Made by a program: the position numbers and the translations under genes. Positions 1,563 through 59,629 of a stretch of 64,000 bases of DNA are shown here, in pieces. This DNA comes from Hyphomicrobiales bacterium. Its GTDB lineage: Bacteria > Pseudomonadota > Alphaproteobacteria > Rhizobiales > Rhizobiaceae. The stretch covers positions 1 through 64,000 of the forward strand of contig UBMP01000008.1 of NCBI GenBank assembly GCA_900466575.1. Direction: 5' to 3'. A model generated the notes under the pieces. That model was not told the origin of the DNA. It was given only the letters and a program-made list of their open reading frames with translations, and did no database searches. Each line of letters begins with the position of its first letter. Positions within the stretch are counted from its first letter, which is position 1.

Positions 1563-1653
1563 CGCACTCCGGTTCAAAACCGGGCTATTATCCACAGTCG
1601 GAGTTAAAATATGGCAAGCATGCTAGGTGTGGCCCCACGGCAACGCCTCCCCT

Positions 1654-1684
1654 CTTGCACTTTGCGAAATTTGTACCAAATATT
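1654..1684 (+). promoter_or_regulatory. possible heat-shock sigma-32-type promoter of hspQ
   Basis: CTTG at 1654-1657 is followed after 18 bases by CCAAATATT. This partly fits the alphaproteobacterial sigma-32 pattern CTTG-N17/18-CYTATNT. The -10 half matches only partly, so this is a suggestion that fits the gene's heat-shock family. Confidence 0.25.
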
Positions 1685-1704
1685 CCTGTGAAAGGAATAT
1701 GACA

Positions 1705-2034: not shown

Positions 2035-2080
2035 GCTGACTGACACGAACCGGACGGAAATTCTGGTTCTGACAAAAAAC

Positions 2081-2110
2081 AAAAAGCCCGGAACGTGTTC
2101 CGGGCTTTTT
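2081..2110. terminator. bidirectional intrinsic terminator (hspQ / ialB)
   Basis: Near-perfect 14-bp stem (AAAAAGCCCGGAAC pairing with GTTCCGGGCTTTTT) with a two-base GT loop, A-rich on the left and T-rich on the right. It lies between two convergent genes and should work in both directions. Confidence 0.9.
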
Positions 2111-2129
2111 CGTATGGATCGGCTGAACC

Positions 2130-2768
2130 TTACTTCGGGTTCTGCGTGGCAGCCTTCTGGGCGTCTTCCAGCTTCTTGCGGCGCGCTTCGGCTTCCTTGA
2201 GCGTCTTTTCCTGCAGAGCGCGCTGAGTTTCCTCAAGCTTGGACTGCTCGACCGGTGCACCATCGAAGGAGGTGCCGAAACCTTCAAGAGCGATCTTGAT
2301 CGGGTTCGGAGCGCGCTGGAAGTTGATCGACGTGAACACGACTTCGTTGCCCTTCTTGAGAGCGGCGATCAGGCCATCGGTCAGCGGGGCTTCGGCAATG
2401 CACTTGTCGGGCATGCAGACTGCATAGTCGAGCTTCTGGCCCTTGCCGCCGTCGATCTGCATCAGGATGCCCGGTGCGATGGCGCGAGCGGACGGAACCG
2501 AAACCTGGATAAGCTTGCGGTTGACCTTGCCGGAAACGGTGATGAGGCCGACAGCCGTCAGAAGCTGGCCGTTGGCGGCCTGCTGAAGGTTCTGCACGAT
2601 GCAGACGTCATTGTCTTCCTGCTTGGTGCAGACCTTGAACCAGCCCTGCGGAAGAGCCGGCGGTGCACCTTCCGGCGCTGCGTCCTGTGCGTTCACGGCA
2701 GTGCCGGCAACCATCAGGGACAGGGTGCCTACAGCGGCAGCGGCGAACTTCTTCAGTGAGATATTCAT
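2130..2768 (-). CDS. invasion-associated locus B (IalB) family protein
   Basis: Periplasmic protein of about 212 residues of the IalB family, named after the Bartonella erythrocyte-invasion locus and common in Rhizobiales, where its role is not settled. Start at 2768 gives a clean signal peptide (MNISLKKFAAAAVGTLSLMV, cleavage near VNA-QD) with GGGAG 11 bases upstream; an upstream ATG at 2792 would bury the signal. The core holds conserved cysteines (FKVCTKQ, DVCIVQN, YAVCMPDKC). The last 40 residues are a charged helical tail (EETQRALQEKTLKEAEARRK), probably coiled coil. It ends at the terminator shared with hspQ. Confidence 0.85.
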   Translation of the reverse strand: MNISLKKFAAAAVGTLSLMVAGTAVNAQDAAPEGAPPALPQGWFKVCTKQEDNDVCIVQNLQQAANGQLLTAVGLITVSGKVNRKLIQVSVPSARAIAPGILMQIDGGKGQKLDYAVCMPDKCIAEAPLTDGLIAALKKGNEVVFTSINFQRAPNPIKIALEGFGTSFDGAPVEQSKLEETQRALQEKTLKEAEARRKKLEDAQKAATQNPK

Positions 2769-3027
2769 TCGGATCTGGTCTCCCGGTGTCATCGTTCCAC
2801 AAGCCCGGCGTCTCGCGCCCGGCTCGTTCAAATCTCGTCGCGGTGTCTGTGTGCCAAATAAGGCATTTGAATGGCCCGCGCAATTTCACTTCCTGTTACA
2901 GAAGTGAATACCGTTTTTCCAGCCCTACAATCCGTTTTTTGCGGCGTTCGAAGCGCTCGTGCCGCGTTTTTGGCCCATTGCGTGGTAACCTCGCCCGCGA
3001 ATCGATGACGTGTGGAAGGGCCTGTAT

Positions 3028-4854: not shown

Positions 4855-4958
4855 CGCTCGAACCGGAAACAGTCTGTTTCTTGGTTTTTGTGCAATTCCG
4901 GATCAAAAGCCGCTATAGGCTGATCCCAAATTGTCTTGTCCTGCGAAAGGAACCCGCT

Positions 4959-5621
4959 TTGAGAACCGTTTCCATCGATATCGTCTCCGACGTCGTCTGC
5001 CCGTGGTGCTATCTCGGCAAGGCGCGGCTGGAACAGGCGCTGGCCATGACTGCCGGTCAGGCCGATGTCGCCATCACCTGGCGTCCCTATCGCCTGAACC
5101 CCGACATACCGGCTGAAGGCATCGACCATCAGGCCTGGCTCGCCTCCAAATTCGGCGGCAAGGACAAGGTCGATAGCGCGCATGCGCAGATCGCCCAATA
5201 TGGCAAGGAAGCCGGGATCGAGTATAATTTCGACGCCATCAAGGTGGGTCCGAACACGCTCGATGCACACCGCCTCCTGCATTGGGCCCTGCAGCACGGC
5301 CGCGACATCCAGAACAAGGTCGCCGACCTGCTCTTCAAGGCGAATTTCACGGAAGGCCGCAATGTCGGCGACCATAAGGTGCTTGTGGAGATCGCCCGCG
5401 AAGCCGGCATGGATGGCGATGTGATCGCCAGGCTGCTGGAGAGCGACGCCGATAAGGACGAGGTCCTCGGCGAGATCGAAGCCGCGCAGAAAATGGGTGT
5501 CTCTGGCGTTCCGTTCTTTATCCTCGACGGAAAATATGCGGTCTCTGGCGCGCAGATGCCGGAAACGCTGGCGGGCGCGATTTTGCAGCTGTCGAATGAT
5601 GAGATTGGTGAGGAAGGCTGA
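4959..5621 (+). CDS. DsbA-family oxidoreductase (FrnE-like)
   Basis: Thioredoxin-fold protein of about 220 residues, likely cytoplasmic because no signal peptide is seen. The active-site CPWC is at residues 14-17 (SDVVCPWCYLG) and the cis-proline loop is in GVSGVPFFIL near the C terminus. This fits the FrnE / 2-hydroxychromene-2-carboxylate isomerase-like branch of the DsbA family; FrnE of Deinococcus is a disulfide isomerase linked to oxidative stress. The start is a TTG at 4959 preceded by AAAGGA with 7 bases spacing. It lies about 100 bases after the peptide-binding protein gene. Substrate is unknown. Confidence 0.85.
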   Translation: MRTVSIDIVSDVVCPWCYLGKARLEQALAMTAGQADVAITWRPYRLNPDIPAEGIDHQAWLASKFGGKDKVDSAHAQIAQYGKEAGIEYNFDAIKVGPNTLDAHRLLHWALQHGRDIQNKVADLLFKANFTEGRNVGDHKVLVEIAREAGMDGDVIARLLESDADKDEVLGEIEAAQKMGVSGVPFFILDGKYAVSGAQMPETLAGAILQLSNDEIGEEG

Positions 5622-5649
5622 ACCAGACCTTCGCCTGGAACTCTTCAGG

Positions 5650-5670
5650 GGCCGGCGTCAGCCGGCCTTT
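5650..5670 (+). terminator. intrinsic terminator of the frnE-like gene
   Basis: A perfect 7-bp stem GGCCGGC-GTCA-GCCGGCC begins 28 bases after the stop codon and is followed by TTTGTCGTTT. The T tract is broken, so termination strength is uncertain. Confidence 0.6.
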
Positions 5671-5713
5671 GTCGTTTCAGCGTCTCGCGAGGCTGACCGT
5701 CCTGTCTCGGAAC

Positions 5714-5908
5714 TCAGCCGCGCTGGCCAAGCGCCTTTTCGATCTTCTTGTCGGTGTTGTACTGGCCGAGCGCATAAACGGCCCAGATCGCAGCTGGCAG
5801 CCAGCCGATCAGCGTGATCTGGAGGATCAGGCAGATGATGCCTGCAATGGGTCTTCCGATGGTGAAGAAGGTGAGCCAGGGCAGGATCAGGGCAATCAGC
5901 AGGCGCAT
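5714..5908 (-). CDS. small YqaE/Pmp3-like membrane protein
   Basis: 64-residue protein made almost wholly of two hydrophobic segments (residues 3-28 and 31-47) with a short charged tail (NTDKKIEKALGQRG). The pattern ALILPWLTFF...GRPIAGIICLILQITLIGWLPAAIWAVYAL resembles the YqaE/Pmp3 family, whose yeast member affects membrane potential and salt tolerance. The start ATG at 5908 has GGAGAG 7 bases upstream. It is a single gene, convergent with the frnE-like gene. Family assignment is moderate and function is unknown. Confidence 0.75.
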   Translation of the reverse strand: MRLLIALILPWLTFFTIGRPIAGIICLILQITLIGWLPAAIWAVYALGQYNTDKKIEKALGQRG

Positions 5909-5995
5909 GTCTGTTCTCTCCGTTGAAGGATGCGATCTATCTGGTGAGCAGGGCTCGCCTTGGCAAGAGCGATACGCCTCGATGCAAAGCTTGAA

Positions 5996-6032
5996 CGAAA
6001 AAGGCCGGAAGCGCGTGACGCTTGCCGGCCTT
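5996..6032 (-). terminator. gyrA intrinsic terminator
   Basis: A long stem lies about 90 bases past the gyrA stop: AAGGCCGGAAGCG at 6001-6013 pairs with CGCTTGCCGGCCTT at 6019-6032 with one mismatch, loop CGTGA. Read on the minus strand it is followed directly by a T run (5996-6000). Confidence 0.85.
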
Positions 6033-6120
6033 CATTACAATCGTGAGATCGTTTGACAAACTTGCAAGCGATCCCACTGTGGTTTGGGTTGCTCGCCCAA
6101 CCACGAGCAACCCGTCTTTG

Positions 6121-8904
6121 TCATTCGGCAGTATCCGAAGGCGCTTCACCACCCTCGCCTGCCTCAACCGATGCATCCACCTCATCGTCACCCTCCGGCT
6201 CGCTGATACGCTCGACCGAGACGACCTTTTCGTCGGCTGCTGTCGAGAAGATCGTGACGCCCTTGGTGGCTCGGCTGGCGATGCGGATACCGTTGACCGG
6301 CACGCGGATCAGCTGGCCGCCATCGGAGACGAGCATGATCTGATCACTCTCCTCGATCGGGAAGGCAGCGACAAGAACGCCGATCTCGCCGGTCTTGGAG
6401 GTGTCGGTGGCGCGGATGCCCTTGCCGCCGCGACCCGAGATGCGGAAGTCGTAGGACGACGAGCGTTTGCCGAAGCCGCGCTCCGAGACGGTGAGCACGA
6501 ACTGCTCGCGCGCCTTCAGCTCCTGATAACGCTCTTCCGGCAGTTCGGTGATCTCGCCGGCTTCTTCACCGACGAGCGCAATGTCGTCCTCTTCCACGCC
6601 CATGGCGCGACGTTCGGCTGCCGAGCGCTTGAGATAGGCCGCGCGCTCTGCCGGATCGGCATCGACATGGCTCAGGATCGTCATCGAGATCAGGCTGTCT
6701 CCCTCCGCCATCGTCATGCCGCGCACGCCGATCGAGTTGCGACCGGCAAAGACGCGGACCTCATCGACGGGGAAACGGATCGCCTGGCCGAGGGCCGTTG
6801 TGAGCAACACGTCGTCACGGTCGGTGCAGGTCTCGACGGAGAGGATTTCGTCACCCTCCTCCTCGAGCTTCATCGCGATCTTGCCGTTGCGGTTGACCTG
6901 GACGAAATCGCCGAGCTTGTTTCGGCGAACCGTGCCGCGGGTCGTGGCGAACATGACGTCGAGGTTTTCCCACGTCGTCTCGTCCTCGGGCAGCGGCATG
7001 ATCGTCGTGATGCGTTCGCCGGGCTCCAGTGGCAGCATGTTGATCATGGCCTTGCCGCGCGACTGCGGCGTGCCGATCGGCAGGCGCCAGACCTTTTCCT
7101 TGTAGACGATGCCACGCGAGGAGAAGAACAGGACCGGCGTGTGCGTGTTGGCGACGAACAGCCGTGTCACGAAATCCTCGTCGCGCGTCGCCATGCCGGA
7201 TCGGCCCTTGCCGCCGCGGCGCTGGGCGCGATAGGTAGTCAGCGGCACGCGCTTGATGTAACCGGCATGGCTGACGGTGACGACCATGTCCTCGCGGGCA
7301 ATCAGGTCCTCATCTTCCATGTCCGGACCGCCTTCGACGATCTCGGAGCGGCGCGGCGTGCCGAATTCGTCGCGGATGGCGATCAGCTCGTCCTTGACGA
7401 TGGTCTGGATGCGCAGGCGCGACGACAGGATGTCGAGGTAATCGGTGATTTCCTCGCCGATCTTGTTCAGTTCGTCGCCGATTTCGTCGCGGCCAAGCGC
7501 CGTGAGGCGAGCGAGACGCAGTTCGAGGATCGCGCGGGCCTGCTCTTCCGAGAGATTATAGGTCAGGTCCTCGTTGATCTTGTGGCGCGGGTCGTCGATC
7601 AGGCGGATCAGCGACTCGACGTCATGGGCCGGCCAGCGGCGCTCCATCAACTGCTCGCGCGCCGTCTGCGGATCGGGTGCCCGGCGGATCAGGTTGATGA
7701 TCTCATCGATATTGGCAACCGCGATAGCAAGACCGACCAAGACATGGGCTCGGTCACGCGCCTTGCGCAACAGATACTTGGTACGACGGCTGACGACCTC
7801 TTCGCGGAAGGACACGAAGGCCTTCAGCATGTCGATGAGGATCATCTGTTCCGGCTTGCCGCCGTTCAGCGCCACCATGTTGCAGCCGAAGGAGGTCTGC
7901 AGCGGCGTGTAGCGGTAGAACTGGTTGAGGATAACCTCGGCATTGGCATCGCGCTTCAGCTCGATGACGACGCGATAGCCTTCGCGGTCGGACTCGTCGC
8001 GAATGTCGGAGACGCCCTCGACGCGCTTTTCGCGTACGAGTTCCGCCATCTTCTCGATCATCGTCGACTTGTTCACCTGATACGGGATCTCGGTGATGAT
8101 GATCTGCTCGCGGTCGCCGCGCATCGGCTCGATGCGGGCGCGGCCGCGCATGATCACAGAGCCCCTGCCCGTCTCATAAGCCGAGCGGATGCCGGCGCGG
8201 CCAAGGATCAACGCTCCTGTCGGGAAATCCGGACCCGGAATATGTTCCATGAGCTGCAGCAGTTCGATGGCCGGATTGTCCATCACGGCGATGCAGCCGT
8301 TGATGACTTCGGACAGGTTATGCGGCGGAATGTTTGTCGCCATGCCGACCGCGATGCCGCCGGCACCGTTGACGAGCAGGTTCGGGAACTTCGCCGGGAT
8401 GACGACCGGTTCGGAGAGCGTGCCGTCATAGTTGTCGCGGAAATCGACGGTGTCCTTGTCGAGATCGTCGAGCAGCGAATGCGCGACCTTCTGCAGGCGG
8501 CATTCGGTGTAACGCTGGGCCGCCGGCGGGTCGCCGTCGACCGAGCCGAAATTGCCCTGACCGTCGATCAGCGGCAGGCGCAGCGACCAGTCCTGCGCCA
8601 TGCGGGCCAGCGCGTCGTAGATCGCGGCGTCGCCATGGGGGTGATACTTACCCATGACGTCGCCGGTGACGCGGGCGCACTTGACGTATTTCTTGTTCCA
8701 GTCAACGCCGAGCTCGGACATGCCGTAGAGAATTCGGCGATGCACCGGCTTCATGCCGTCGCGCACGTCGGGCAGCGCTCGGCTCACGATCACGCTCATC
8801 GCGTAATCGAGATAGGAACGCTGCATTTCTTCAATGATGGAAATGGGCTCGATTTCGCTCGGGCCCCTGCCGCCGGGTGTCATTTGCGCTGTCAATTCGG
8901 TCAC
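6121..8904 (-). CDS. gyrA: DNA gyrase subunit A
   Basis: Breakage-reunion subunit of gyrase (927 residues), which introduces negative supercoils with GyrB. Seen: the opening [39 protein letters not shown] around residue 90, the catalytic tyrosine in [10 protein letters not shown], and the C-terminal GyrA-box form RRGGKGRSG (beta-pinwheel). The tail is acidic. The position equal to Ser83 of E. coli is alanine here (residue 93 in GDAAIYD), a state associated in Bartonella and Brucella with low intrinsic quinolone susceptibility. Monocistronic, with its own terminator downstream. Confidence 0.98.
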
Positions 8905-49341: not shown

Positions 49342-49715
49342 TCTAAACATCCAAAATATGTTATTTTCGCACCATGTTGATCCGTGGCGGCCCTAGATCA
49401 CTACGAGGTGGTGGAGCGGAAGAGTGACATTTCTACCCGAGGCTTTTACGTCGGGAGCTATGTTCCACTCAATCGCCTCGCATCCCGGTCTCGCGACATA
49501 AGCAACATGGTCTGGCCTCTCGAACGCCCCCTTCTGGACATTCCTGTCTCGTTGCGTCTCAGGTGATCGAGCTTTAACCGTGCAGCCTCACCTGTCCCAC
49601 CCAGTCGGCCGCAGACGCTGTAGCGCTGCGCCCCGACAGTCTTCGCCGTTTCCGTCTGATGGTCGATCCGGAAAAATATCGCCACTGGACATGTTATTGA
49701 TATTCTGGAATGGAC
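49342..49715. other. interval between tRNA-Lys and the Mu-like element
   Basis: About 370 bases in which no gene is supported. Short open frames on both strands have no ribosome-binding site and no recognisable product. The right edge approaches the TGGGAATG-type repeat of the element; the exact junction is not resolved. Confidence 0.5.
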
Positions 49716-49732
49716 ACGATTTTATGGGAATG
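49716..49732 (+). repeat. left-end repeat, probable transposase site
   Basis: ACGATTTTATGGGAATG. Differs from the right-end copy (58788-58803, opposite strand) by a single inserted base over 17 positions. Probably a MuA-type binding site. Confidence 0.6.
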
Positions 49733-49763
49733 TGAAGTTGTTCCCAACAACGATCGATTGTTA

Positions 49764-50081
49764 TCAGTTTCCTCTGAGTTGCTGAAGGAAACGAAAAATT
49801 GCCGACCTCGACGGCGCGCGCTCCATCCCGAACCTTGCCAAACATGCCTCACGGATTTGCTGACCGATCATGGTATCGGAACACTCCACTATGAAACTGG
49901 CAAGTTCCGCATCGCGGGCAATGCGTGACCTCGATTTGGCGCGGTAGAGATTGATTTCGCGGCGTTGTCGCCCGATTGTTGCTTCCGCTTGTAACGCTTC
50001 GAATTCCCCGGCGCTTATTGTCACCATATCGCCCTCAAGAGCCAGTTTTCCGCAATCTTGGCATCTTTTCAGTTCGTTCAT
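49764..50081 (-). CDS. phage-associated small HTH-like protein with CxxC
   Basis: 105 residues, not assigned to a family. The N terminus holds a CxxC pair (RCQDCGKL) that could be half of a zinc site. The C terminus (QQIREACLARFGMERAPSRS, then AIFRFLQQL) looks like a helix-turn-helix recognition unit, resembling small-terminase-type or regulator DNA-binding helices. GAGG and AAGGG precede the ATG. It is the last element gene, only about 30 bases inside the left repeat. It might be a remnant packaging protein or a late regulator. Confidence 0.6.
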   Translation of the reverse strand: MNELKRCQDCGKLALEGDMVTISAGEFEALQAEATIGRQRREINLYRAKSRSRIARDAELASFIVECSDTMIGQQIREACLARFGMERAPSRSAIFRFLQQLRGN

Positions 50082-50116
50082 CGCCTCACCCTTCGAACCG
50101 TCGTCGTATCGTGTGT

Positions 50117-50146
50117 GCGGGCCGCATCCTGCCAGAGGCGGCCCGC
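50117..50146. repeat. GC-rich hairpin in late region
   Basis: GCGGGCCGC and GCGGCCCGC form a perfect 9-bp stem with a 12-base loop. No T run follows on either side. Confidence 0.5.
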
Positions 50147-50206
50147 TAGGCTATTCGTCCCACCACGAACGAACGGCCGCCGTGCGAGGATCACACACGG
50201 CAATAT

Positions 50207-50230
50207 GCGCCCCGTCGCCAACCGGGGCGC
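50207..50230 (-). terminator. possible terminator after the decoration gene
   Basis: GCGCCCCG-TCGCCAAC-CGGGGCGC, 8-bp perfect stem, begins 4 bases after the stop of the DUF2190 gene on the minus strand. No T run, so termination is uncertain. Confidence 0.4.
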
Positions 50231-50234
50231 AAGC

Positions 50235-50654
50235 TCAGCGCCGGAGCAGAACTTCGACCACGTCGCCAGCGCTGCCATCGTCAATGGCATCCGCAAAGAC
50301 GTATTCCGGCAAGTCCGCGCCGCTGAGAATGGTGGACCCGTTCGCGCCCGTGCTCGTGACGGCCGTCGCGCCCGCCTTGACTGCAAGACTTCCTGTCGCT
50401 GCGATCGCCTTGCCAGCATTATTCACGATCAGGCTCTGTCCCTTCGTCACATTGCCACCGAGCTCGATCAGCGTCGTGCCCATAACGTCGGCGTCGGAAT
50501 AGTCGCCACTGACGACGGCGCGCGGCGATACGCCCAATACCTTCTGACCCTGGACAGACGCCTGTGCGCCGTCGAAGCCAACGGCACGATAGGCCGAAAC
50601 CGCGCCGGATGCCTTGAAGGTCAGGGCCATGATCGAAATTTTCTGTCTTGCCAT
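50235..50654 (-). CDS. DUF2190-type capsid decoration (cement) protein
   Basis: 139 residues, matching the small capsid-cement family that sits on phage heads next to the major capsid gene. Features: MALTFKASGAVSAYRAVGFD near the start, repeated glycine-bounded beta stretches (GQKVLGVSPRAVVSGDYSD, GTTLIELGGNVTKGQSLIVN) and an end with VVEVLLRR. AGGGA lies 8 bases before ATG 50654. It follows the protease gene by 19 bases, the usual protease-capsid-decoration cluster, here in the order capsid-protease-decoration. Confidence 0.75.
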   Translation of the reverse strand: MARQKISIMALTFKASGAVSAYRAVGFDGAQASVQGQKVLGVSPRAVVSGDYSDADVMGTTLIELGGNVTKGQSLIVNNAGKAIAATGSLAVKAGATAVTSTGANGSTILSGADLPEYVFADAIDDGSAGDVVEVLLRR

Positions 50655-50673
50655 GTTCGTGTTCCCTACGGTT

Positions 50674-51534
50674 TCAGCGTTTGGAGACGGACAAAACCGC
50701 CTGCTGATAGCTGACCTTGTGCTGTCTCTGGTAGGCCGTGGCCTGCCGGTGAAGTTCCATCCGATCGGCATTCACCGACGTGTGTTCCGGGCTGGAGAAG
50801 TCCGCCGAATCGGAGAAATCTCCCGTGCAGATTTCGCCCGTGACGACTGGCAATGGCAGCCGCTCCAGGAACTCGCGGAAGCTCGCGACTTGGCTCTTCG
50901 TAACGGCGGTTCCATCGTCTTCGGAGAAGTTGACAACAGCATCATCCGAAAGCGTTTCCATGAACGCAGCCGTCTCTTCCTTCAACCCGATGGGCAGAAC
51001 GCCCTTTCGAACCATGGCGTCGACAAAGGTGGCATTGTCCCTCCGGCGCATGTCTCGCTCACGGGCGGCAAGGCGTTCCTCGCGAAGGTCCATGATCCCT
51101 TCCTCGAAATCCACGAAGCCTTCCGAACTGCCCGCGAAGTTTACCGGTGTCAGGCCTTTCACGGCAGGCGGTTGCGCACCCAGGAAGCCGACATGCCGGA
51201 GATACCATTTGCCCTTCACCGGATTTCCAGCCGTGTTGTCCGGCCTGTAGAAGCTTGCGGATACCTTCTTGAACGCGCCCTGGCGAACCAGATCGGAGAA
51301 CTCGGCATTGACCTGCTTCGGCACGGCAAACAGACCTTCCTTGCGGACTTCAAGCCGGTCGATCCAGCCATATGCCGGAGCGTTGTCCTTCGGATGCCCG
51401 ACGACGATAGGCGCTTCGTGCTTGGCCGGATCATAGACGGCAGCGATGTCGCGGAAATCTTGTTCCGTGAAACTCGTCTCCGCCCCGTCGTTCGAGGTCT
51501 GCCGACCGGCCTTCATGATGTGAATTGCGTTCAT
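50674..51534 (-). CDS. phage head maturation protease (Mu gpI-like)
   Basis: About 286 residues. The N-terminal half resembles Mu-type head protease: EQDFRDIAAVYDPAKHEAPI, VVGHPKDNAPAYGWIDRLEV, GAFKKVSASFY. The C-terminal part is charged and helical (LREERLAARERDMRRRDNAT), as in scaffolds made from an internal start in Mu (gpZ). ATG at 51534 has GGAG 8 bases upstream; a GTG overlapping the capsid stop at 51543 is the other option. It lies directly after the capsid gene. Confidence 0.75.
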   Translation of the reverse strand: MNAIHIMKAGRQTSNDGAETSFTEQDFRDIAAVYDPAKHEAPIVVGHPKDNAPAYGWIDRLEVRKEGLFAVPKQVNAEFSDLVRQGAFKKVSASFYRPDNTAGNPVKGKWYLRHVGFLGAQPPAVKGLTPVNFAGSSEGFVDFEEGIMDLREERLAARERDMRRRDNATFVDAMVRKGVLPIGLKEETAAFMETLSDDAVVNFSEDDGTAVTKSQVASFREFLERLPLPVVTGEICTGDFSDSADFSSPEHTSVNADRMELHRQATAYQRQHKVSYQQAVLSVSKR

Positions 51535-51539
51535 GCCCT

Positions 51540-52460
51540 TCACTCCGCAACCACGTCGGTGAAGAGGAAGCCCGCAACCATGCCGGACAGTACAGGTTGC
51601 CGTTCGAAGGTAATCGGATAGATGTCGCTCTTGGCGTTGTGGTCATAATACGCCTGCTCGACGGCGGGATTGCCTCGCATGGTGTACGTGTAGCCATAGC
51701 TCGGCTGTTCGTAGCCTGACGGGGTTTGCGGTGCATAGGCGAGGATGCAGTAGTTGCCCCAGACATCGCTGAACGTGCCGTTGTCGCTGGCAAAGACGGC
51801 CTTGCCTTCCACGACCTTGTCGATCTCGAACAGACTGGCCAGCATCGAAGCCGTGATGATGTCGGTATTGCGGAACTTCGCCGCAATCTTCTCGTTGGTC
51901 CGCAGCCCGCCATAGGGCCGTGAACCGCAAAGCATCACGTTCGGATACATGCCGCAGGTCGCGCGGATCGCCTGCCGCGCTTCCTCGATATCAACGATCG
52001 GATCGCTGTCGGCATGGCTCCACTGCGAAGCGCCGGAGAGCTGGAGCTTGTGATTGCTGTCATAGTTCGCCTCGTCGGTTGCAAGCTGCGCCTGCTCGTA
52101 TTCGAGGTTCAGTGTCAGCGTGTTCATGACCAGATTGGCCGAACGCATGCCGAGATCGATCCCTGCCGCGCCGCTGGCATCGCGTTGGTATTCGCGCGGA
52201 ACCTTGCCTTCAAGGCTGTCCTGGACAAGGCTGAACGGCTTTCCTTCATACCCGAAGTCAACCCGCTTCGTCGCTGCACCAGGCGCACGGCGGGCATTGT
52301 AAAGCATGAAGCTTTCCTTGCCGAATTCGATGATCTTCCCGGCACCGAGAAGAACCTCGACACGGGGAAACAGGAGGCTGCCGACGCGTTCGGCATGCTG
52401 GTAGCCCTGCACATGCGTTGTCAGGACGGGATCGATTACGCGGGCTTGGCTGAGGTTCAT
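51540..52460 (-). CDS. phage major capsid protein
   Basis: 306 residues. The opening MNLSQARVIDPVLTTHVQGY and GSLLFPRVEVLLGAGKIIEF fit the HK97-fold major capsid family found in Mu-like and related siphophages and myophages. Later segments NVMLCGSRPYGGL and AAKFRNTDIITASMLASLFE match the same family's back half. It is followed by the protease and decoration genes, an order reversed from Mu (I before T). The gene is intact with no frameshift. Confidence 0.75.
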   Translation of the reverse strand: MNLSQARVIDPVLTTHVQGYQHAERVGSLLFPRVEVLLGAGKIIEFGKESFMLYNARRAPGAATKRVDFGYEGKPFSLVQDSLEGKVPREYQRDASGAAGIDLGMRSANLVMNTLTLNLEYEQAQLATDEANYDSNHKLQLSGASQWSHADSDPIVDIEEARQAIRATCGMYPNVMLCGSRPYGGLRTNEKIAAKFRNTDIITASMLASLFEIDKVVEGKAVFASDNGTFSDVWGNYCILAYAPQTPSGYEQPSYGYTYTMRGNPAVEQAYYDHNAKSDIYPITFERQPVLSGMVAGFLFTDVVAE

Positions 52461-52591
52461 GTTGGCGGTTCCTTTGAGGTTTGGTTTTCAGTGTGGCGAG
52501 GAGAGCGGCGGGCGATCCACGCAGCCGGAAAGTTTCGGAGCATGTGATCTGCTGAGTGAGGCGCTGGCAGGATTCTGGCTGTTCGACATGA

Positions 52592-53014
52592 TCAGCGCTC
52601 CGGGCCGTAAAGCCGAGCCGAGCGCTCTATCGACTTGGAGCGTCGCGCTTCATCTGTTTGTAGGAGTTCCCGGACTGTGGTCGTGGTAATCCGCGCTTTT
52701 CTTCCTATCTCGGAAATGCCCATTCCTTGCGATCTGAGATATCGAGCGATGAAGGCGTTACCCATCGGGATCAGGGTCGGTCCAACACCAAGGATACTGG
52801 ACTTCTCAAGCTTCTCCAGGATTTCAAGGCCGACTGCCCGTGCAATCATCCCGCCCCGGCGCGCGCGGCCGGAAACGTAAACTTCGGACCCGCCGAAAGC
52901 CAAGAGGAAGGTGCAGGCGTCTTGCGCCCCCAAAGCCTCAACGAATGGCATCACGTGGGCGTCAATGCGCCCAGTGCGTTTCTGTCCGTTTGGCATGGTC
53001 CATGTAATTTGCAT
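52592..53014 (-). CDS. Mor-like late transcription activator, probable
   Basis: About 140 residues. The middle (CTFLLAFGGSEVYVSGRARR) and the C-terminal helix-turn-helix (FIARYLRSQGMGISEIGRKA) resemble the Mor/C class of Mu activators: a beta-strand dimer part then an HTH. It lies between GemA and the head genes, as Mor/C do in Mu. ATG at 53014 is the first plausible start; no clear ribosome-binding site is seen, so the start is uncertain. Expected to switch on the head genes; this is inference from place and fold. Confidence 0.55.
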   Translation of the reverse strand: MQITWTMPNGQKRTGRIDAHVMPFVEALGAQDACTFLLAFGGSEVYVSGRARRGGMIARAVGLEILEKLEKSSILGVGPTLIPMGNAFIARYLRSQGMGISEIGRKARITTTTVRELLQTDEARRSKSIERSARLYGPER

Positions 53015-53158
53015 ACAGGGACAGTAGTTTGGGGGAGAAATCAGAAATAGACCAAAACCCTTTGGGGGTACTATGGCGAGCAGGGTTCCGATTCGCCGGT
53101 TTCGGCGCAATCACCCCTTTTGTGGCTTCTATGGCAACACATTTCGGACGGATACACA

Positions 53159-53935
53159 ATGGCGAGAGTGGTTTTGAAGGATACGGGCCAGGTCGTGTTG
53201 CTTGCCAGCACGCCCGAGTACCAAGCTGAAATTGCGGCATGGCGCGCTGCCGAATGCACGGAACACAAACCGATCGTTTGCCGAGTTCCGATTGCAAATG
53301 GCGGTAAACAGGTCCGCCCCCAATGCCAGGTTTGCGGCAAGCTGGTTGGCAACTCACAGAAACACTCGTCCGACGACGACAAATATCCGATGTACCAGGA
53401 TCATTTGGCCGCAGACTACGAACGTCGCCGCGAAAACGAGTACAACCAAATCCTGCAGAAGCATGCTCGACTTCAAGTCGACAAAGAGAGCAGCTTCTTT
53501 CACGAATATAACGACTATCTGAAAAGCGATGTCTGGCGAGCGAAGCGTGAACGTGTCCTGAAGCGCGCGCAAGGAATCTGCGAAGGTTGCGGCATCCAGC
53601 CTGCAAGCCAAGTGCACCATCTGACTTACGAACATAAAATGGAGGAGTTTCTGTTCGAGCTGGTCGCTGTCTGCGACACCTGCCATGATCGACTGCACGC
53701 ACCAAAGACGGCAGGTCCGGAAGTCCCGGAGCCCATCAACACGCTGATGGGGCCGAAGTTGGAATACGGAGACTATGGACAGATTTACCTTGAGAAGCCG
53801 TGCGACGGGTGTCGATATGGCGGCGACGACAAGGGCATGAGCTACTGCGGAGTCGTGGGGGAACCTTCCGCTTTCGCTCTCTCACAAGACGGCGCGTGCG
53901 GTCCTGATCACCGGCTTTTCGAGCCTTTGAAATAG
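53159..53935 (+). CDS. HNH endonuclease-domain protein, cargo of the element
   Basis: About 258 residues, transcribed against the rest of the element. Two zinc-ribbon pairs are seen: CQVCGKL near residue 57 and an HNH core made of CEGCGIQPASQVHHLTYEHK and VAVCDTCHDRLHAP. A last cysteine cluster CDGCRYGG follows. Local GC is low (26 of 60 bases from 53461), unlike the flanking genes. Position and strand suggest a moron-type insertion gene, possibly for DNA cleavage in packaging, homing or competitor exclusion. The function is not proven. Confidence 0.72.
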   Translation: MARVVLKDTGQVVLLASTPEYQAEIAAWRAAECTEHKPIVCRVPIANGGKQVRPQCQVCGKLVGNSQKHSSDDDKYPMYQDHLAADYERRRENEYNQILQKHARLQVDKESSFFHEYNDYLKSDVWRAKRERVLKRAQGICEGCGIQPASQVHHLTYEHKMEEFLFELVAVCDTCHDRLHAPKTAGPEVPEPINTLMGPKLEYGDYGQIYLEKPCDGCRYGGDDKGMSYCGVVGEPSAFALSQDGACGPDHRLFEPLK

Positions 53936-54108
53936 AAGCTCGTCAGACGAGTTCGTGGGGGCTGGCTCAAGCACGATGGCCGGATGGGGATCAAAACGCG
54001 CCCACGACCTTCAAATCGGCTTCAAAAACGATTATAAATCTTCACGGAGCATGGAATTTTCACTTCGCGTCACTCCCCCCGCTGATCGGGATCGTAAAGG
54101 GTGGCGTT

Positions 54109-54136
54109 GCAGCGGCCTGGACAGCCGGGCCGCTGC
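54109..54136. repeat. 9-bp GC hairpin after gemA
   Basis: GCAGCGGCC at 54109-54117 pairs with GGCCGCTGC at 54128-54136. No T run follows on either strand. Confidence 0.4.
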
Positions 54137-54147
54137 CGTCAATTTGT

Positions 54148-54582
54148 TCACGCCTTTTTCCTCGCCGCCATCGCCTTGAGCGCGTAAATGACTTTGGAAG
54201 CCTTCTCCGCTCCGACGAAGCGAAGCGCTGTGATATGATGGTGTTTATCCAGCCACGCATTGAGACCGGAGTCGCCCGGATCGTCCGTGCCTGAGAATTG
54301 CCTCCATAGCGACCGGATCAGATCGACCTGGGCAGGGGTTGCCATCCCTGCCCTGTTGCCGAAGGTCCGCTTCGTCCAGGTGGAGCGAAAGCCCAGGGCC
54401 GTGAAATACCGCATGACGTAATCAAAGCCTTGCGCGTCCAGATCGGCCGCGCTGGCCACATTGCCATACCGGGCGAGGATCGTCCGATAATCTTCATCTT
54501 CAAGCTTCAGCTCCCGCTTGGCGACTTGGATAAGCCGGATCTGCTTTGCGGTGATGCCACCCGATCTTGCGCGCCCGGTCAT
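54148..54582 (-). CDS. gemA: GemA / Mu gp16-like regulatory protein
   Basis: About 144 residues of the gp16 family found in the middle region of Mu-like phages; in Mu, GemA alters host DNA supercoiling and gene expression. Seen: ITAKQIRLIQVAKRELKLED, EDYRTILARYG, and FGNRAGMATPAQVDLIRSLW, the family core. AAGG lies 7 bases before ATG 54582. It overlaps the stop of the preceding gene by 4 bases, so translation is coupled. Confidence 0.82.
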   Translation of the reverse strand: MTGRARSGGITAKQIRLIQVAKRELKLEDEDYRTILARYGNVASAADLDAQGFDYVMRYFTALGFRSTWTKRTFGNRAGMATPAQVDLIRSLWRQFSGTDDPGDSGLNAWLDKHHHITALRFVGAEKASKVIYALKAMAARKKA

Positions 54583-54929
54583 TGGTCGACCTTCTGCGTG
54601 AACGCCGAAACCCATCCCGCGCCATTGCCTCGGAAATTTTCAGTGCCGTGCATAAGGTCGCGCACGACGGCCTCATGAAGGACGGCACTCCGCGCCGCCA
54701 CCATTCGAAGCATGGCGACAGAAAAACGCGACAGGCGTTCATTGCTGTCCTTGGAATCATAGCCAAACTCATGATGCCAGAACTGCTCACATGCCCAGGA
54801 GATCGTCTGTAGATCGTCCTTGAACTCCCAAAGCAGATGGGCTGCGCCCTCGCTGGCCTTCAGCGCCGCGTCGGCGGCGGCGATTTCGATGGAAACGGAA
54901 CCGGCATGTTTTTCTGTCGCTTTTTGCAT
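54579..54929 (-). CDS. unknown phage early/middle protein
   Basis: 116 residues, not recognised. Mostly helical with no membrane segment; contains ACEQFWHHEFGY and a basic-aromatic central part (LSRFSVAMLRMVAARSAVLH). GAGGAAAG 5 bases before the ATG supports translation. It lies between the MuB-type ATPase and gemA, where Mu-like phages keep small accessory genes. No function is proposed. Confidence 0.65.
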   Translation of the reverse strand: MQKATEKHAGSVSIEIAAADAALKASEGAAHLLWEFKDDLQTISWACEQFWHHEFGYDSKDSNERLSRFSVAMLRMVAARSAVLHEAVVRDLMHGTENFRGNGAGWVSAFTQKVDQ

Positions 54930-55020
54930 CGTGACTTTCCTCTTTCAGGCATAGCTCCGCACGACGCCGGACAAGGGTACGGAGTGGGTTGATGATGGAT
55001 GATGTGAATGCGTGAAGCGG

Positions 55021-55806
55021 TTACGCCGCTTCGGACTTCAACAGACCGGCGTCCCCAAGCTTGGGATTACCGGCCATGGTAATTTGGATGTGGCGCAGTT
55101 GGATCGAGCCGGTCCCCGCCGTCAGCCTCTTGGCGTTCTCCAGCAGGCGGCCGAGCATTCGGGGCGTGGTCTTCGTGCCGAAATTTGCCAACGCCTGGTA
55201 AGCGTCCATGCCCTCGACGCCGTAGGCGGCTCCCATCAGCTCGCAATCCGTGCGGCTCAAGCCGGGGAGCTTGATTTCCATGCCGATCCGGCTGTCAATT
55301 TGCTCCCATGCTCCACGGTCCATTTTGGTCTTGGCGATGCGCTCGCCGTTGCCACTAATGACGAGACCGAATTGGCAGGTTTCCTGAATGCTGAGAAGCT
55401 CCCGCAACGCAGTCGCCTCAAGCGTTTGAACCTCGTCAACGATAATAAGCAGACGCCCCTTTTCAGAATGTTCCATGCGCCAAATGTTGCGACGTCCAAG
55501 GACATCTACCAAGGTGTTGAAAAGCTCACGGGTGTACTTGTCATCGTGATAGATTTCGCAGGCCGCGAGAAGCGTCCTGTACATATCGGGCGCGGACTTG
55601 TGGGCTTGTCCGATTTGGCAATAGTAGCCGCCCATGTCTTCAGCCAGGTAGTAAAGGCCAGTCGTCTTACCGAACCCGGCCTGGCTGGTGATCCGCACGG
55701 GCTCCCCAAACGCCATGGTATAGTTGATGCCTTCCCGAATGCGGGCAACCGAACCGATTTCCACAAACAGGTGCCGATCCGGCAAGCGGGGTTTGATCAG
55801 TTCCAT
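55021..55806 (-). CDS. MuB-type AAA transposition ATPase
   Basis: 261-residue ATPase. Walker A SQAGFGKTTG near residue 42, Walker B RLLIIVDEVQTLE near residue 120, and sensor-type VISGNGERIA. MuB/TniB proteins coat target DNA, pick insertion sites and activate the transposase. Its start overlaps the transposase stop by one base (TGATG), so the two are translationally coupled as in Mu A-B. The short N terminus lacks the DNA-binding domain of Mu B and looks more like TniB/IstB-size members. Confidence 0.85.
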   Translation of the reverse strand: MELIKPRLPDRHLFVEIGSVARIREGINYTMAFGEPVRITSQAGFGKTTGLYYLAEDMGGYYCQIGQAHKSAPDMYRTLLAACEIYHDDKYTRELFNTLVDVLGRRNIWRMEHSEKGRLLIIVDEVQTLEATALRELLSIQETCQFGLVISGNGERIAKTKMDRGAWEQIDSRIGMEIKLPGLSRTDCELMGAAYGVEGMDAYQALANFGTKTTPRMLGRLLENAKRLTAGTGSIQLRHIQITMAGNPKLGDAGLLKSEAA

Positions 55807-57866
55807 CAGCGTTTGCTCCCAGCGGCAACCATGCTCATAAAGAGCGAACGGGCTTCATCCTGCTTTCGGACTTCGTCTTCGATCTGCTGTTGCGTCTTCC
55901 GCTTCGTCATCGCCGGCCGGATCGCCAGCGACGTTTCACCGCGTCCAGCGCCAACGGACACAACGCCGTCTGGCTCGTTCGGGATGACGGGCAATTGCTT
56001 CCCGCCGTATTCGATCAGCTCGGCCTTCACGTCGATCGGCGGCTCTGACTTGGAGAGTTGCGTCAAGGCCTTCTCACGGATGGCGGTTCGGCGGGCGCTT
56101 TCCTGTGCGCCTCGCGGGTCGAAGTACGAATATTCCTGATCAGGAACAGCAACGCCGATTTCGCGGCCTTGCATGTCGAAGATCTTCAGCATGTTGAAGC
56201 CGAAGCCGTAGCGAGGAATGTGGACCTGCACCTTGTTCCCGAAAAACTGGCGTAGACCATCGCAACTCCATACGCGGCCATCCGCCTCGATCCCATGTTT
56301 ACGAACAGTGCGGGTTTCCGGCTTTGTGAAGACGGTCAGGAGGTCCATCGGGTCCAGAACGTTTGCGCGCCATCCGTCCGCGACGAAATTGCCGAACCGC
56401 TCGGCAGGCGACTTGCCCTTGAGAGCCCCGGTCTTCGGCATATAGGCGTAGGCCTGCATCAATTGCCGGAACTCAGCGCAGAAGGCATCGAATCCGCCCT
56501 CATAGGGCCTGTGGGCCTTCCCAAGTTCCCTGCCCTTCGGCTTCATGCGATCATCGTCAATCCAGCCGGGTATGTGGCGCTGGACGAACTGATTAAGCTC
56601 CCGGAAGCCGCCTTCGATCCGCTTGGCGGCGGCGTTGTAAGGCTTGGCTCGGTGGACACTCTTGACCTCGTCCAGATCGCGGAATTCCACACCGAGCTTG
56701 AGCGCGTCTTCGAGCTGATCGGCAAAGCGATATTCCGAGCCGTTGTCGAAATAGAGCTTCTTGGGCAGGCCAAAAGCCTTGTCCTGGCACATGTTGACGA
56801 ATGTGCCGATGACATCGATGTTGCGGACGCTTGCCCGGCCTTCAAACAAGACGAATTCGTAAAAGAACCGCTCCGTCGCCACATCGAAAAAGGCGATCAT
56901 CTTTGCGGTCGCTGTCGTGCCGTCATCGCGCAAAAGACGGATGTTTGCGTGATGAACGTCGGCCACGACCACATCCATAGGCAATAGGCCTTCGACCGTG
57001 CGGCGGATGCGAGGCTTGGCGTCTTCATGTGCCTTGCGGTCGGACCTGCGGCGGTAAACTGCCTTGTAGTGATGTTCATCCTTGACGAAATTGAAGGGGA
57101 TGGAAAAGACGATCCGTTCGCGCGCCCGGTCATTCACCCTGTAGCCATGGGCGGCGGAAAGCGCCTTCAGCTTCTCTGAGGCAAGGACGCGGGTTTGCTT
57201 CATCTGAGAACCGCCCATGATCAGGCCCCGCACATAGCGCTTCAGGTCTTCATGGATCGCAGCCTTTACGTCATCCCCGAACGGAACCGCGTTGTGCCAT
57301 TCCAGGCTGACCCAGCATTTCTTGCGACCCTTGCTCGAATAGACCGCGCGGGAAAGCGCCTGGAGGCCGTCGCGCTCGTAAGTTTCAACCCAGCGATAGA
57401 GGGCCGATTTCGTCAGGCGTAGCGGTTGGCCGCGCCAATCAAGCCGCATTTCGCCCGCGAGCTTGCCAAGACATTCGCCGCGCTGCCGCGAATTCTTCGG
57501 AAAGGCGAGCGCGGTGCGGATGACATCAAATTTCCAGTTGCGTTCGCGCTGCGCTGCCTCGCCTGTGCGAATGCTCGAACGGTCTTCATCGGTCCTTTGA
57601 AGGTCCTTCAAACTGTCCTGTAACTCAATTGGAAGGCTGGAAACCTTGACTTGATATTGGAGGCCAGAGCGCCCGCCGCGTCCGCCTATCGTGCGGACTT
57701 CGAGACGGTGGCCGTGCCATTCGCCCTTCCGACATGCTTTCCAAGCTGCTTGCCGTGTAAGCCCCGCTAACTGCGAAAATTCAAGGAGCCCAACAAATGT
57801 GGCAAGGTCACTCAAGGCCAGCTCCCCGAAACAGGGTATGACGAAGAGCCTGAGCCTTTGGGCCAT
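55806..57866 (-). CDS. MuA-type DDE transposase
   Basis: About 686 residues. The N-terminal part is a winged/HTH DNA-binding module (ATFVGLLEFSQLAGLTRQAA) followed by HTH-like segments (LTKSALYRWVETYERDGLQA). The RNase H-like core carries the catalytic triad as D about 301 (VVVADVHHANI), D about 376 (LYFDNGSEYR) and E about 418 (KRIEGGFRELNQFV). The C terminus ends with charged helices that should contact MuB. ATG 57866 has GAGG 8 bases upstream; an upstream GTG at 57923 is possible. All three acidic residues are present, so it may be active. Confidence 0.9.
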   Translation of the reverse strand: MAQRLRLFVIPCFGELALSDLATFVGLLEFSQLAGLTRQAAWKACRKGEWHGHRLEVRTIGGRGGRSGLQYQVKVSSLPIELQDSLKDLQRTDEDRSSIRTGEAAQRERNWKFDVIRTALAFPKNSRQRGECLGKLAGEMRLDWRGQPLRLTKSALYRWVETYERDGLQALSRAVYSSKGRKKCWVSLEWHNAVPFGDDVKAAIHEDLKRYVRGLIMGGSQMKQTRVLASEKLKALSAAHGYRVNDRARERIVFSIPFNFVKDEHHYKAVYRRRSDRKAHEDAKPRIRRTVEGLLPMDVVVADVHHANIRLLRDDGTTATAKMIAFFDVATERFFYEFVLFEGRASVRNIDVIGTFVNMCQDKAFGLPKKLYFDNGSEYRFADQLEDALKLGVEFRDLDEVKSVHRAKPYNAAAKRIEGGFRELNQFVQRHIPGWIDDDRMKPKGRELGKAHRPYEGGFDAFCAEFRQLMQAYAYMPKTGALKGKSPAERFGNFVADGWRANVLDPMDLLTVFTKPETRTVRKHGIEADGRVWSCDGLRQFFGNKVQVHIPRYGFGFNMLKIFDMQGREIGVAVPDQEYSYFDPRGAQESARRTAIREKALTQLSKSEPPIDVKAELIEYGGKQLPVIPNEPDGVVSVGAGRGETSLAIRPAMTKRKTQQQIEDEVRKQDEARSLFMSMVAAGSKR

Positions 57867-58029
57867 TGCGTTTGCCTCTAAGGGCATCAGACGCCCACAC
57901 TCGGCAAATACCTCGCGACGCACACCACTTGCTTAGGGAGGTGCCTTGCGCGATAAATCCCGCTCGAACGGCTGTGAGCAAATGGGGCGAGCACTGGGTT
58001 CTGATATTTTTTGTTGTCTCTGACTTCAT
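57808..58029 (-). CDS. Ner-like small DNA-binding regulator
   Basis: 73 residues. LTAVRAGFIAQGTSLSKWCA followed by GKRNGPKAQALRHTLFR is the Ner/Cro-like HTH pattern seen beside transposase genes of alphaproteobacterial Mu-like phages. It overlaps the transposase start region by about 59 bases in another frame. The start codon at 58029 lies inside the GACTTC operator array, and no ribosome-binding site is clear. In Mu, Ner lowers early transcription; that role is inferred here. Confidence 0.68.
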   Translation of the reverse strand: MKSETTKNIRTQCSPHLLTAVRAGFIAQGTSLSKWCASRGICRVWASDALRGKRNGPKAQALRHTLFRGAGLE

Positions 58030-58047
58030 GTAGAAGTCTGTGACTTC
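58022..58047. promoter_or_regulatory. triple half-site operator between ner and repressor
   Basis: GACTTC at 58022-58027, GAAGTC at 58033-58038 and GACTTC at 58042-58047, spaced by 5 and 3 bases, make two overlapping perfect inverted repeats. It lies between the divergent Ner-like and CI-like genes, the expected place for Mu-type operators. Confidence 0.72.
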
Positions 58048-58071
58048 TTTTTTCGTGAGTGTCAAGCTGAA

Positions 58072-58566
58072 ATGGAAGAGCCGGTTAGAGTTTTCATCGA
58101 GCGTGCAAAGGCTGCCCTGTCCATCGAAACCGACGAGCAATTGGCCTCCGAGCTTGGTTACTCAAAACAAACCATCGCAAATTGGCGACGCCGTGGCTCG
58201 GTCCCAGAGAAAGCGCGTGCGCTAATCGCTCACGTTGCCGGTCCCGAGTTTGCGCTTAATGAATGGCGTCAGCTTGCTCTTGAGCAGCGCGAGAAAACAA
58301 TCCTTTACGCCTGCCTTGCCAACGTCTACTCGCGCCTGCTGGAGGATCATAAAGCAGATCTTACTCCCGAAAACCTCGCGAAGCTCGGGCCTGCATTCAA
58401 CAACTTGGAAACCGGGATTCTCGGGCACATCAGGGCGATGGCTTTTCATGGCGTTCCCGAAGCGGAAGTAATTCGCCGCCTTCTGGATCGTATGGACGAC
58501 GAACGGATGATGGAACTCACTTGGTTCTTTATCGACGTCCGGAAATGTCTCCGCGAGCAAGGTTGA
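58072..58566 (+). CDS. CI-like phage repressor
   Basis: 164 residues. The N-terminal HTH is of the CI-repressor type (ERAKAALSIETDEQLASELG, YSKQTIANWRRRGSVPEKAR). The rest is helical, ending with a hydrophobic part (RMMELTWFFIDVRKCLREQ) that may oligomerise; no peptidase/cleavage domain as in LexA or lambda CI is seen. It is transcribed away from ner-A and is expected to hold early transcription off by binding the GACTTC array. Confidence 0.75.
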   Translation: MEEPVRVFIERAKAALSIETDEQLASELGYSKQTIANWRRRGSVPEKARALIAHVAGPEFALNEWRQLALEQREKTILYACLANVYSRLLEDHKADLTPENLAKLGPAFNNLETGILGHIRAMAFHGVPEAEVIRRLLDRMDDERMMELTWFFIDVRKCLREQG

Positions 58567-58657
58567 CCAATAGGTTTACCAATATCCGGATTATGGAACT
58601 TAAAAGCCTCTAAAGTTGCGCAAAAAACCTTTCAGAATCAACGCGGTGACTGATTGG

Positions 58658-58665
58658 TGGGAATG
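58658..58665 (+). repeat. TGGGAATG-core site, inner right copy
   Basis: Found in TTGGTGGGAATGA. The copy at 58754-58761 has the same TTGGTGGGAATGA on the other strand, a 13-base match. Confidence 0.6.
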
Positions 58666-58753
58666 AAGAATTTTTGATGTCACCATTTTGGTGATTGGGG
58701 ACCCGGACGAAGCGCGCTTTTTTTGAATTGTTTCAATAGCTTCAACCGTCCAT

Positions 58754-58761
58754 CATTCCCA
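58754..58761 (-). repeat. TGGGAATG-core site, middle right copy
   Basis: Complement reads TTGGTGGGAATGA, inverted relative to the inner copy. Probable transposase-binding site. Confidence 0.6.
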
Positions 58762-58787
58762 CCAAGCAATATCTGTTTTGCGCGCGC

Positions 58788-58803
58788 CATTCCCAAAAAT
58801 CGT
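58788..58803 (-). repeat. right-end repeat, probable transposase site
   Basis: Complement reads ACGATTTTTGGGAATG and matches the left-end repeat at 49716-49732 except for one missing base. Taken as the outermost site of the right end. Confidence 0.6.
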
Positions 58804-58855
58804 TAGCGCCTCCACCACAACGGCTTCCATCTTAATCGGACCTTAGGACCTTGCG

Positions 58856-58870
58856 GAACACAAATGGAAC
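58856..58870. promoter_or_regulatory. LexA (SOS) box of lexA
   Basis: GAAC at 58856-58859 and GAAC at 58867-58870, seven bases apart, are the reverse complement of GTTC-N7-GTTC. The lexA start is 49 bases downstream, and a -10-like TATAGT is at 58872-58877, so LexA bound here would block its own promoter. Confidence 0.88.
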
Positions 58871-58918: not shown

Positions 58919-59629
58919 ATGCTGACGCGCAAACAACAAGAACTGCTTCTCTTCATCCACGAGCGGATGAAAGAGTCCGGTATCCCGCCGTCCTTCGATG
59001 AAATGAAGGATGCACTCGACCTTGCGTCGAAGTCGGGGATCCACAGGCTGATCACGGCGCTTGAGGAACGCGGCTTCATCAGGCGGCTTCCGAACCGGGC
59101 CCGCGCGCTCGAAGTCATCAAGCTTCCCGAGGCCTACACACCCAGCCTGCAGCCACGGCGCGGTTTCTCGCCGAGCGTGATCGAAGGCAGCCTCGGAAAG
59201 ATGCCGGAGCCGCCAAAGCCCCAGGTGCCCGCCAACGACGATGCCAGCGTCGCAGTTCCCGTCATGGGGCGCATTGCTGCGGGCGTACCGATTTCCGCCA
59301 TCCAGAACAACACCCATGAAATTGCCGTTCCTGCGCAGATGCTGGGAAATGGCGAACACTACGCGCTGGAGGTCAAGGGCGACTCGATGATCGATGCCGG
59401 CATCCTGGACGGCGACACGGTGATCATCCGCAACACGTCCAACGCCAGCCCCGGCGAGATCGTCGTTGCGCTCATCGATGACGAGGAAGCGACGCTGAAA
59501 CGTTTTCGCCGCAAGGGCGCCTCGATCGCGCTGGAAGCGGCCAATCCCGCCTATGAAACGCGCATCTTCGGACCCGACAGGGTCAAGATACAGGGCAAGC
59601 TGGTGGGCTTGATCCGCCGCTATCACTGA
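58919..59629 (+). CDS. lexA: SOS repressor LexA
   Basis: 236 residues. Winged HTH at the N terminus ([40 protein letters not shown]). Autocleavage site Ala121-Gly122 in GRIAAGVPI, with the serine-lysine dyad Ser156 (GDSMIDAG) and Lys194 (EATLKRF). It represses repair genes, including probably uvrA and ssb of this window, until RecA filaments trigger cleavage. A linker rich in proline ([15 protein letters not shown]) joins the domains. It is convergent with comEC and overlaps it by 7 bases. Confidence 0.97.

Follow-up and report, generated by a model that had tools for sequence, protein, structure and literature searches.

Compact Mu-type transposable elements next to LexA operators as candidate phage satellites

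Bacteriophage Mu selects its targets near-randomly, and transposons of the Tn5053/Tn402 type encode a DDE transposase together with an AAA+ ATPase. The latter, known as res-site hunters, insert in a preferred orientation beside a protein-bound DNA site, with resolvase at res acting as the beacon and no virion genes described in the sections of the source at hand (PMC7765201). Small helper-dependent islands with their own regulation include the P4-like, PICI, PLE and PICMI families, and the passages of a review that list them name no Mu-type transposable satellite (PMC11389934); AH14b, as presented in part of its source, is a P4-like integrase element (PMC4936722). Capsid-forming phage-inducible chromosomal islands (cfPICIs) encode a portal, connectors and both terminase subunits, according to the relevant section of PMC10690885. 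Here we describe a compact Mu-type element of about 9.1 kb located between tRNA-Lys and lexA, at approximately 49711-58814 of a 64,000-nucleotide window (the whole stretch of DNA analyzed: positions 1 to 64,000 of contig UBMP01000008.1, assembly GCA_900466575.1, a Hyphomicrobiales bacterium of the Rhizobiaceae), together with 12 relatives. On balance, and with modest confidence, we read these elements as a clade of compact Mu-type transposable phage satellites for which LexA operators serve as attachment sites and which would borrow portal, terminase and tails from helper phages. A satellite life style is likely, with helper use being inferred.

Like cfPICIs, the window element supplies a capsid protein and a head protease of its own, whereas tails would have to come from a helper. 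It differs from them in that no portal or terminase was found, leaving capsid and protease only, in that it would move by a Mu-type transposase instead of an integrase, in its Mor and GemA genes and in its location at a LexA operator. With the P4-like, PICI, PLE and PICMI islands it would share small size, helper dependence and regulation of its own. The full Mu-like phages RcapMu, RR1-B and YPCBV-1 resemble it in repressor, transposase, ATPase, GemA and a related capsid protein (44-53% identity to that of the window), as well as in a late activator annotated in RcapMu and RR1-B, but they are 36-39 kb long, encode packaging and tail genes (with lysis genes annotated in two of the three) and belong to another transposase clade. 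Among the traits of Mu-like phages, the DDE transposase, MuB-like ATPase and Ner/repressor control region are thus present, but not the full packaging, head, tail and lysis modules, the relatives carrying only single tail genes. General traits of phage satellites, namely own integration and regulation genes, an incomplete virion gene set and recurrence as a family, are all found, with far borders unfixed. In contrast to the near-random targets of Mu, all 13 elements are located at LexA operators. As in res-site hunters, they are found in one orientation beside the binding site of a regulatory protein, with the operator at 28-41 bp, the difference being that the site is the operator of the SOS repressor. 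Available main text on Tn7-type target selectors does not mention lexA or recA (PMC10293859), and no description of Mu-like satellites, of lexA/SOS-box-targeted elements or of capsid-forming satellites with a transposase was found in the titles and abstract openings searched, preprints and most subscription journals being outside the scope.

In all 13 elements, 28-41 bp separate the repressor end from a directional LexA operator (GAAC-N7-GAAC), always on the same side and in the same orientation (gaps of 41, 39, 37, 29, 28, 31, 31, 30, 31, 32, 34, 30 and 28 bp). Eleven sites are found at lexA, with constant relative orientation, one is upstream of recA (contig L065) and one is at a micro-open reading frame (ORF) with SOS boxes in genome G118; the gaps at the two non-lexA sites, 31 and 32 bp, fall inside the lexA range. 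Elements were searched by transposase only, and the sites were therefore not selected. The lexA operators belong to the host, since genus-mates without an element carry them as well. Background frequency was estimated from 484,654 bp of fetched DNA containing 40 boxes, 23 of which remain after subtraction of 17 at the sites in question (11 at element-bearing lexA, four at genus-mate lexA and two at the G118 locus L054). The chance of a correctly oriented box in the 14-bp range is about 3e-4 per element. For the two non-lexA sites combined it comes to about 1e-7, rising to about 5e-5 when a 300-bp zone is granted because the ends were picked by eye. Operator-targeted insertion is well supported by position, and this preference for operators stands out as our strongest finding and the most unexpected one.

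The initial annotation of the locus had missed the LexA-operator site. On the lexA side, similarity to four genus-mates restarts just outside the element in three (Table 1) and at 58786 in the fourth (G187), which keeps a relic of an element end. Specifically, this decayed end (TGGAGGCACGAAGGATAATTGGGAAT) adjoins lexA just upstream of an SOS box at 9988 of locus L056, in a genome without an element, so elements have probably inserted at the lexA site repeatedly in this genus. At the G118 site (L054:13254-13400), overlapping SOS boxes precede an ORF of 28 codons that has a stretch resembling a ribosome-binding site, and the element is upstream of this ORF. The encoded peptide is probably membrane-spanning and is reminiscent of SOS-induced division-inhibitor peptides such as SidA.

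The 13 elements, of about 8-10 kb, come from 12 genomes of 11 genera and four families and from one contig. Searching 297 genomes of the family by transposase returned 12 matches, six of them strong (the window genome G000, G050, G015, G268, G118 and a partial copy in G120). Excluded from all counts were a short transposase relic in G188 (E 2.3e-17) and five weak matches (G123, G005, G124, G089 and G020; E 7.4e-6 to 6.9e-4). A profile of five transposases gave four matches in 397 genomes of the order, including three new ones in other families (G326, G664 and G358), and one further element (G1060) came from the small families to which G664 (20 genomes) and G358 (28 genomes) belong. A second draw of 394 genomes from the window's own family gave seven matches, two of them new (G1090 and G1113), and a class-wide draw of 385 genomes returned only the window element at E 1e-60; the draws overlap. 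One more element is IMG/VR contig L065. IMG/VR scans by single transposases or by the end motif found no new member (L134 is a 31.8-kb record identical to L066). Two other candidates were rejected: L152 resembles a member by capsid gene order but is a 55.8-kb record without a transposase of this clade at E 1e-20, and the lexA match in viral locus L111 belongs to a gene for a LexA/CI-like repressor.

A careful phylogeny of 31 transposases places the 12 usable compact sequences in a single clade (ultrafast bootstrap 96, SH-aLRT 95, 97% of 200 bootstrap trees), separate from the Mu-like phages included in the comparison. In a wider, quick tree (55 rows), nine compact rows likewise group together, with support 97. 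The residues read as the DDE triad (D322, D393, E437) are invariant across nine aligned transposase relatives. Three capsid lineages are found inside this one clade: the window element, with a phrog_1005 capsid, is sister to the G050 element with a Mu T-type capsid, and the G268 element, with a divergent type, groups with the T-type G015 element. Capsid genes have thus been exchanged inside the clade, yet a capsid gene is nearly always retained. The nearest outsider is the viral contig L071, on a long branch. ORFs of this 12.4-kb IMG/VR contig were read by eye as Mu portal, MuF-like and tape-measure genes, with no terminase noticed, and it is a possible second compact design.

Profile searches (PHROGs, Pfam) of the window proteins confirmed the gene set of the initial annotation: repressor, Ner-like helix-turn-helix (HTH) protein, DDE transposase, AAA+ ATPase, GemA, Mor, capsid, protease and a cement-like decoration protein. 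Across the elements, the early genes (repressor, Ner, transposase, ATPase and mostly GemA) follow a common order with exceptions; GemA was not found in L065 and L146, Ner is missing from L059, and L059 and L116 leave their contigs after GemA. Of the 11 elements with a readable downstream part, 10 (the window element and nine of ten relatives) carry both a Mor-like gene and a capsid gene. Capsid types in these ten are phrog_1005 in the window and G118 elements, a divergent phrog_1005 member in G268 (20% identity to the window protein) and the Mu T type in seven. Seven of the ten encode a protease and four (L065, L115, L117 and L144) a tape-measure-like protein, in place of which L146 has Mu G-like and J-like tail genes. 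Capsid-bearing gene sets occur in 8 of the 11 genera and on one metagenome contig. The reported lack of terminase, portal, tail and lysis genes also stands: none was found at 49.7-58.6 kb by profile searches, nor portal and large terminase by tblastn. Further, the portals and large terminases of RR1-B, YPCBV-1 and the resident prophage of the window genome gave no tblastn match in any of the 13 elements, and PHROG and Pfam scans of 38 of the 40 otherwise unassigned ORFs of ten elements revealed no portal or terminase (of the ORFs with a similarity-based assignment, only some were included).

The capsid module was initially described as following Mu order, which did not hold. Transcription order in the window element is capsid, protease, decoration, as opposed to protease, decoration (DUF2190), capsid in RR1-B, YPCBV-1 and RcapMu; the order of capsid and protease is reversed in two members relative to these three phages. 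Based on alignments, the proteases of the window (289 amino acids) and G118 (290 amino acids) elements lack about 80-115 amino acids between the protease and the C-terminal scaffold part, a stretch present in all eight homologues compared (370-403 amino acids; the three named phages and five fetched contigs). That this shortening alters head size is only a guess. The cement candidate matches PF09956 at 18.6 bits, below the Pfam cut-off of 24, and phrog_673 is named head scaffolding. The capsid protein is 45-46% identical to a solved phage protein (3bjq) over about 300 columns; its structure model is poor (mean pLDDT 51.9) and was used only alongside this sequence match. Capsid ORFs are open along their full length and look constrained, contrary to the possibility of absent selection raised at the outset: the ratio of nonsynonymous to synonymous differences (pN/pS) is 0.28-0.56 in six major capsid protein (MCP) pairs, for example pN 0.217 and pS 0.657 for L117 versus L144, with synonymous changes near saturation.

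The ends are less well defined. Related repeats had been noted at both ends of the window element, and these are weakly borne out by a single 17-bp near-match (ACGATTTT-TGGGAATG), whose score of 27 is barely above the best of 100 shuffles (26). Far-end inverted repeats exceed the best of 100 shuffles, narrowly, only in the window, L051 and L117 elements, and do not in L052, L053, L115, L054 and L065. No 5-bp target duplication was found at the end motif of the window element, the sole exact match being inside the element and taken as chance. Nor was one found for L052, L117, L054 and L065, and the exact matches of L051 and L053 fall inside the elements. An exact 5-bp candidate in L115 was dismissed as being roughly at chance level.

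Candidate helpers do occur alongside the elements: a Mu-like portal was found in four of nine element-bearing genomes searched (strongly in G000, G358 and G664, weakly in G050; G1060, G1090 and G1113 were left out of this search). The window genome itself carries a full Mu-like prophage on contig 13, with terminase, portal, tail and T-type capsid genes identified by eye except for the portal.

We hypothesize that a resident element is kept silent by its own repressor and that induction of a helper Mu-like phage, or infection by one, would set off replication of the element by transposition. The Mor protein would turn on the capsid and protease genes and, in some elements, the tape-measure gene, and element heads could be completed with portal, terminase and tails of the helper. 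Transposase and ATPase may choose their target by meeting LexA on its operator, or the operator DNA, similar to res-site hunters with their resolvase-bound site. A more far-reaching version, tentative and in our judgment possible rather than probable, is that the satellites home to operator-bound LexA, with the SOS repressor serving as landing beacon and, when cleaved upon DNA damage or phage attack, as release signal, and that small heads are built from exchangeable capsid modules on a helper portal. If the satellite reading is right, phage satellites arose on a Mu transposition platform too, with a capsid gene and without portal or terminase, and a family of DDE transposons uses the operator of a transcription repressor as attachment site. 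Satellite, helper and SOS response would be tied together, and the elements would represent a natural protein-guided, possibly LexA-guided, targeting system.

A number of observations weigh against the satellite reading, and some of them fit other explanations. Movement, packaging and helper use are putative, element ends were set by visual inspection, repeats at the far ends are weak, no clear target duplication was found and the near end starts with TA, not TG, in 3 of the 13 elements. Five of the nine genomes searched lack a Mu portal, and the capsid type of the resident G000 prophage differs from that of the window element. The T-type capsid tree places satellite capsids in no single clade (with five label changes, and with L115, L117 and L144 grouped at 99), and part of the MCP constraint may date from life in phages, the MCP pairs being far apart. 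Three of the 13 transposases are damaged, with most of the gene missing in L059, about 80 residues missing in L146 and two frames in L116, and L145 has a CRISPR array in place of capsid and Mor genes. Defective Mu-like prophages stripped of their late genes, for which lexA is merely a tolerated place, would account for this damage, which slightly raised the weight of such deletion remnants and slightly lowered that of satellites, and also for a gene content that is a subset of a Mu phage, the two additional virion genes of L146, the absence of clear target duplications and the G188 fragment, which shows that relics exist. We consider this explanation quite unlikely, however, because the same kind of site is occupied in 11 genera and four families (12 genomes), with capsid-bearing sets in 8 genera and on one metagenome contig, the transposases belong to a single deep clade in which capsid types have been swapped, the capsid/protease order is reversed in two members, and capsid ORFs remain open and apparently constrained. 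A unique deletion in the window, with full-length prophages in relatives, was the obvious concern at the start and was rejected as the main reading in view of the 12 relatives of the same design. An anti-phage function fits the retained genes as well: capsid, protease and tape-measure proteins could act as decoys that poison the assembly of incoming Mu-like phages, the element itself staying unpackaged. The retained virion genes are form-giving (a capsid gene in 10 of 11 elements and a tape-measure gene in four) with portal and large terminase not found, and assembly-blocking defenses borne by prophages or satellites are described in parts of PMC10884400 and PMC11364771. We nevertheless regard such superinfection exclusion as rather unlikely, given that the late activator and the largely intact transposition genes point to a life cycle and not to defense alone, and that five window proteins gave no PADLOC match.

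With respect to the insertion site, operator-adjacent insertion could be general to Mu-like phages of this bacterial order and merely inherited by the compact elements. In the region 124074-124800 of contig 13 (L131), past the repressor gene of the G000 prophage, SOS boxes are found at 124632 and 124755, at distances of 196 and 319 bp from that gene. Satellites may therefore not be alone in their link to operators, a further point against our reading. However, the nearer box is probably inside the prophage, to judge from its sharing with a related stretch in G187, and the 18-kb loci around the Mu-like transposases L118 and L119 contain no SOS box, that of L120 having only one, not on the repressor side (exact ends unlocated); we consider this alternative unlikely. 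Finally, the target could be the DNA upstream of lexA itself and not the operator, in which case the recA and micro-ORF sites would be coincidental. Eleven of the 13 sites are at lexA and share YGCAA next to the box, but the recA and micro-ORF sites lack YGCAA and have the SOS box, at gaps of 32 and 31 bp within the lexA range, and we therefore give this explanation little credence. The transposable, capsid-bearing satellite first proposed from the window is now the leading reading, in view of the 12 relatives and the capsid constraint.

Table 1 Features of the window element and its lexA flank (coordinates in the 64,000-nucleotide window)
Feature	Coordinates	Strand or sequence	Basis
Far end (approximate)	49711..49740	TGGACACGATTTTATGGGAATG	local match to other end, score 27 versus best of 100 shuffles 26
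Last gene, 105 amino acids, phrog_16319 (unknown function)	49764..50081	-	tblastn relatives in L051, L052, L115, L065, L146
Head/cement (DUF2190-like) protein	50235..50771 as listed; start likely nearer 50645	-	phrog_673 E 2e-17
Head maturation protease-scaffold, 289 amino acids	50674..51543	-	phrog_976 E 3e-84
Major capsid protein, 306 amino acids, full length	51540..52460	-	phrog_1005 E 3e-87
Mor-type late transcription activator (ORF as listed)	52592..53110	-	phrog_836 E 8e-14
HNH-like ORF inside element, opposite strand	53159..53935	+	PF01844 18.1 bits, under cut-off
GemA	54148..54615	-	PF06252 E 5e-22
Small ORF between ATPase and GemA	54579..54929	-	ORF at same position in several relatives
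MuB-like AAA+ ATPase	55021..55806	-	PF13401 E 2.5e-8
Mu-type DDE transposase	55806..57923	-	phrog_310 E 4e-42
Ner-like HTH protein (ORF as listed)	57808..58140	-	phrog_15281, phrog_925
Repressor	58072..58566	+	phrog_638 E 2e-8
Near (repressor-side) end	58780..58814	TGGAGGCGCTAACG... reading inwards	end comparison; genus-mate similarity back at 58825-58832 in 3 of 4
LexA operator of host lexA (SOS box GAACACAAATGGAAC)	58856..58870	+	41 bp from element end
Host lexA	58919..59629	+	

The HNH-like ORF is probably cargo; it had no PADLOC match and no tblastn match in the 12 relatives. In L145 (G1090 C31:88500-108400), what reads as a long CRISPR repeat array, accompanied by adjacent cas1/cas2-like ORFs, spans 28-8119 and adjoins the GemA gene of the lexA-adjacent element. 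In the genus-mate G014 (L055:4645-8415), the tRNA-Lys to lexA interval is filled instead by a 1256-amino acid ORF, so insertions may favor this interval in general.

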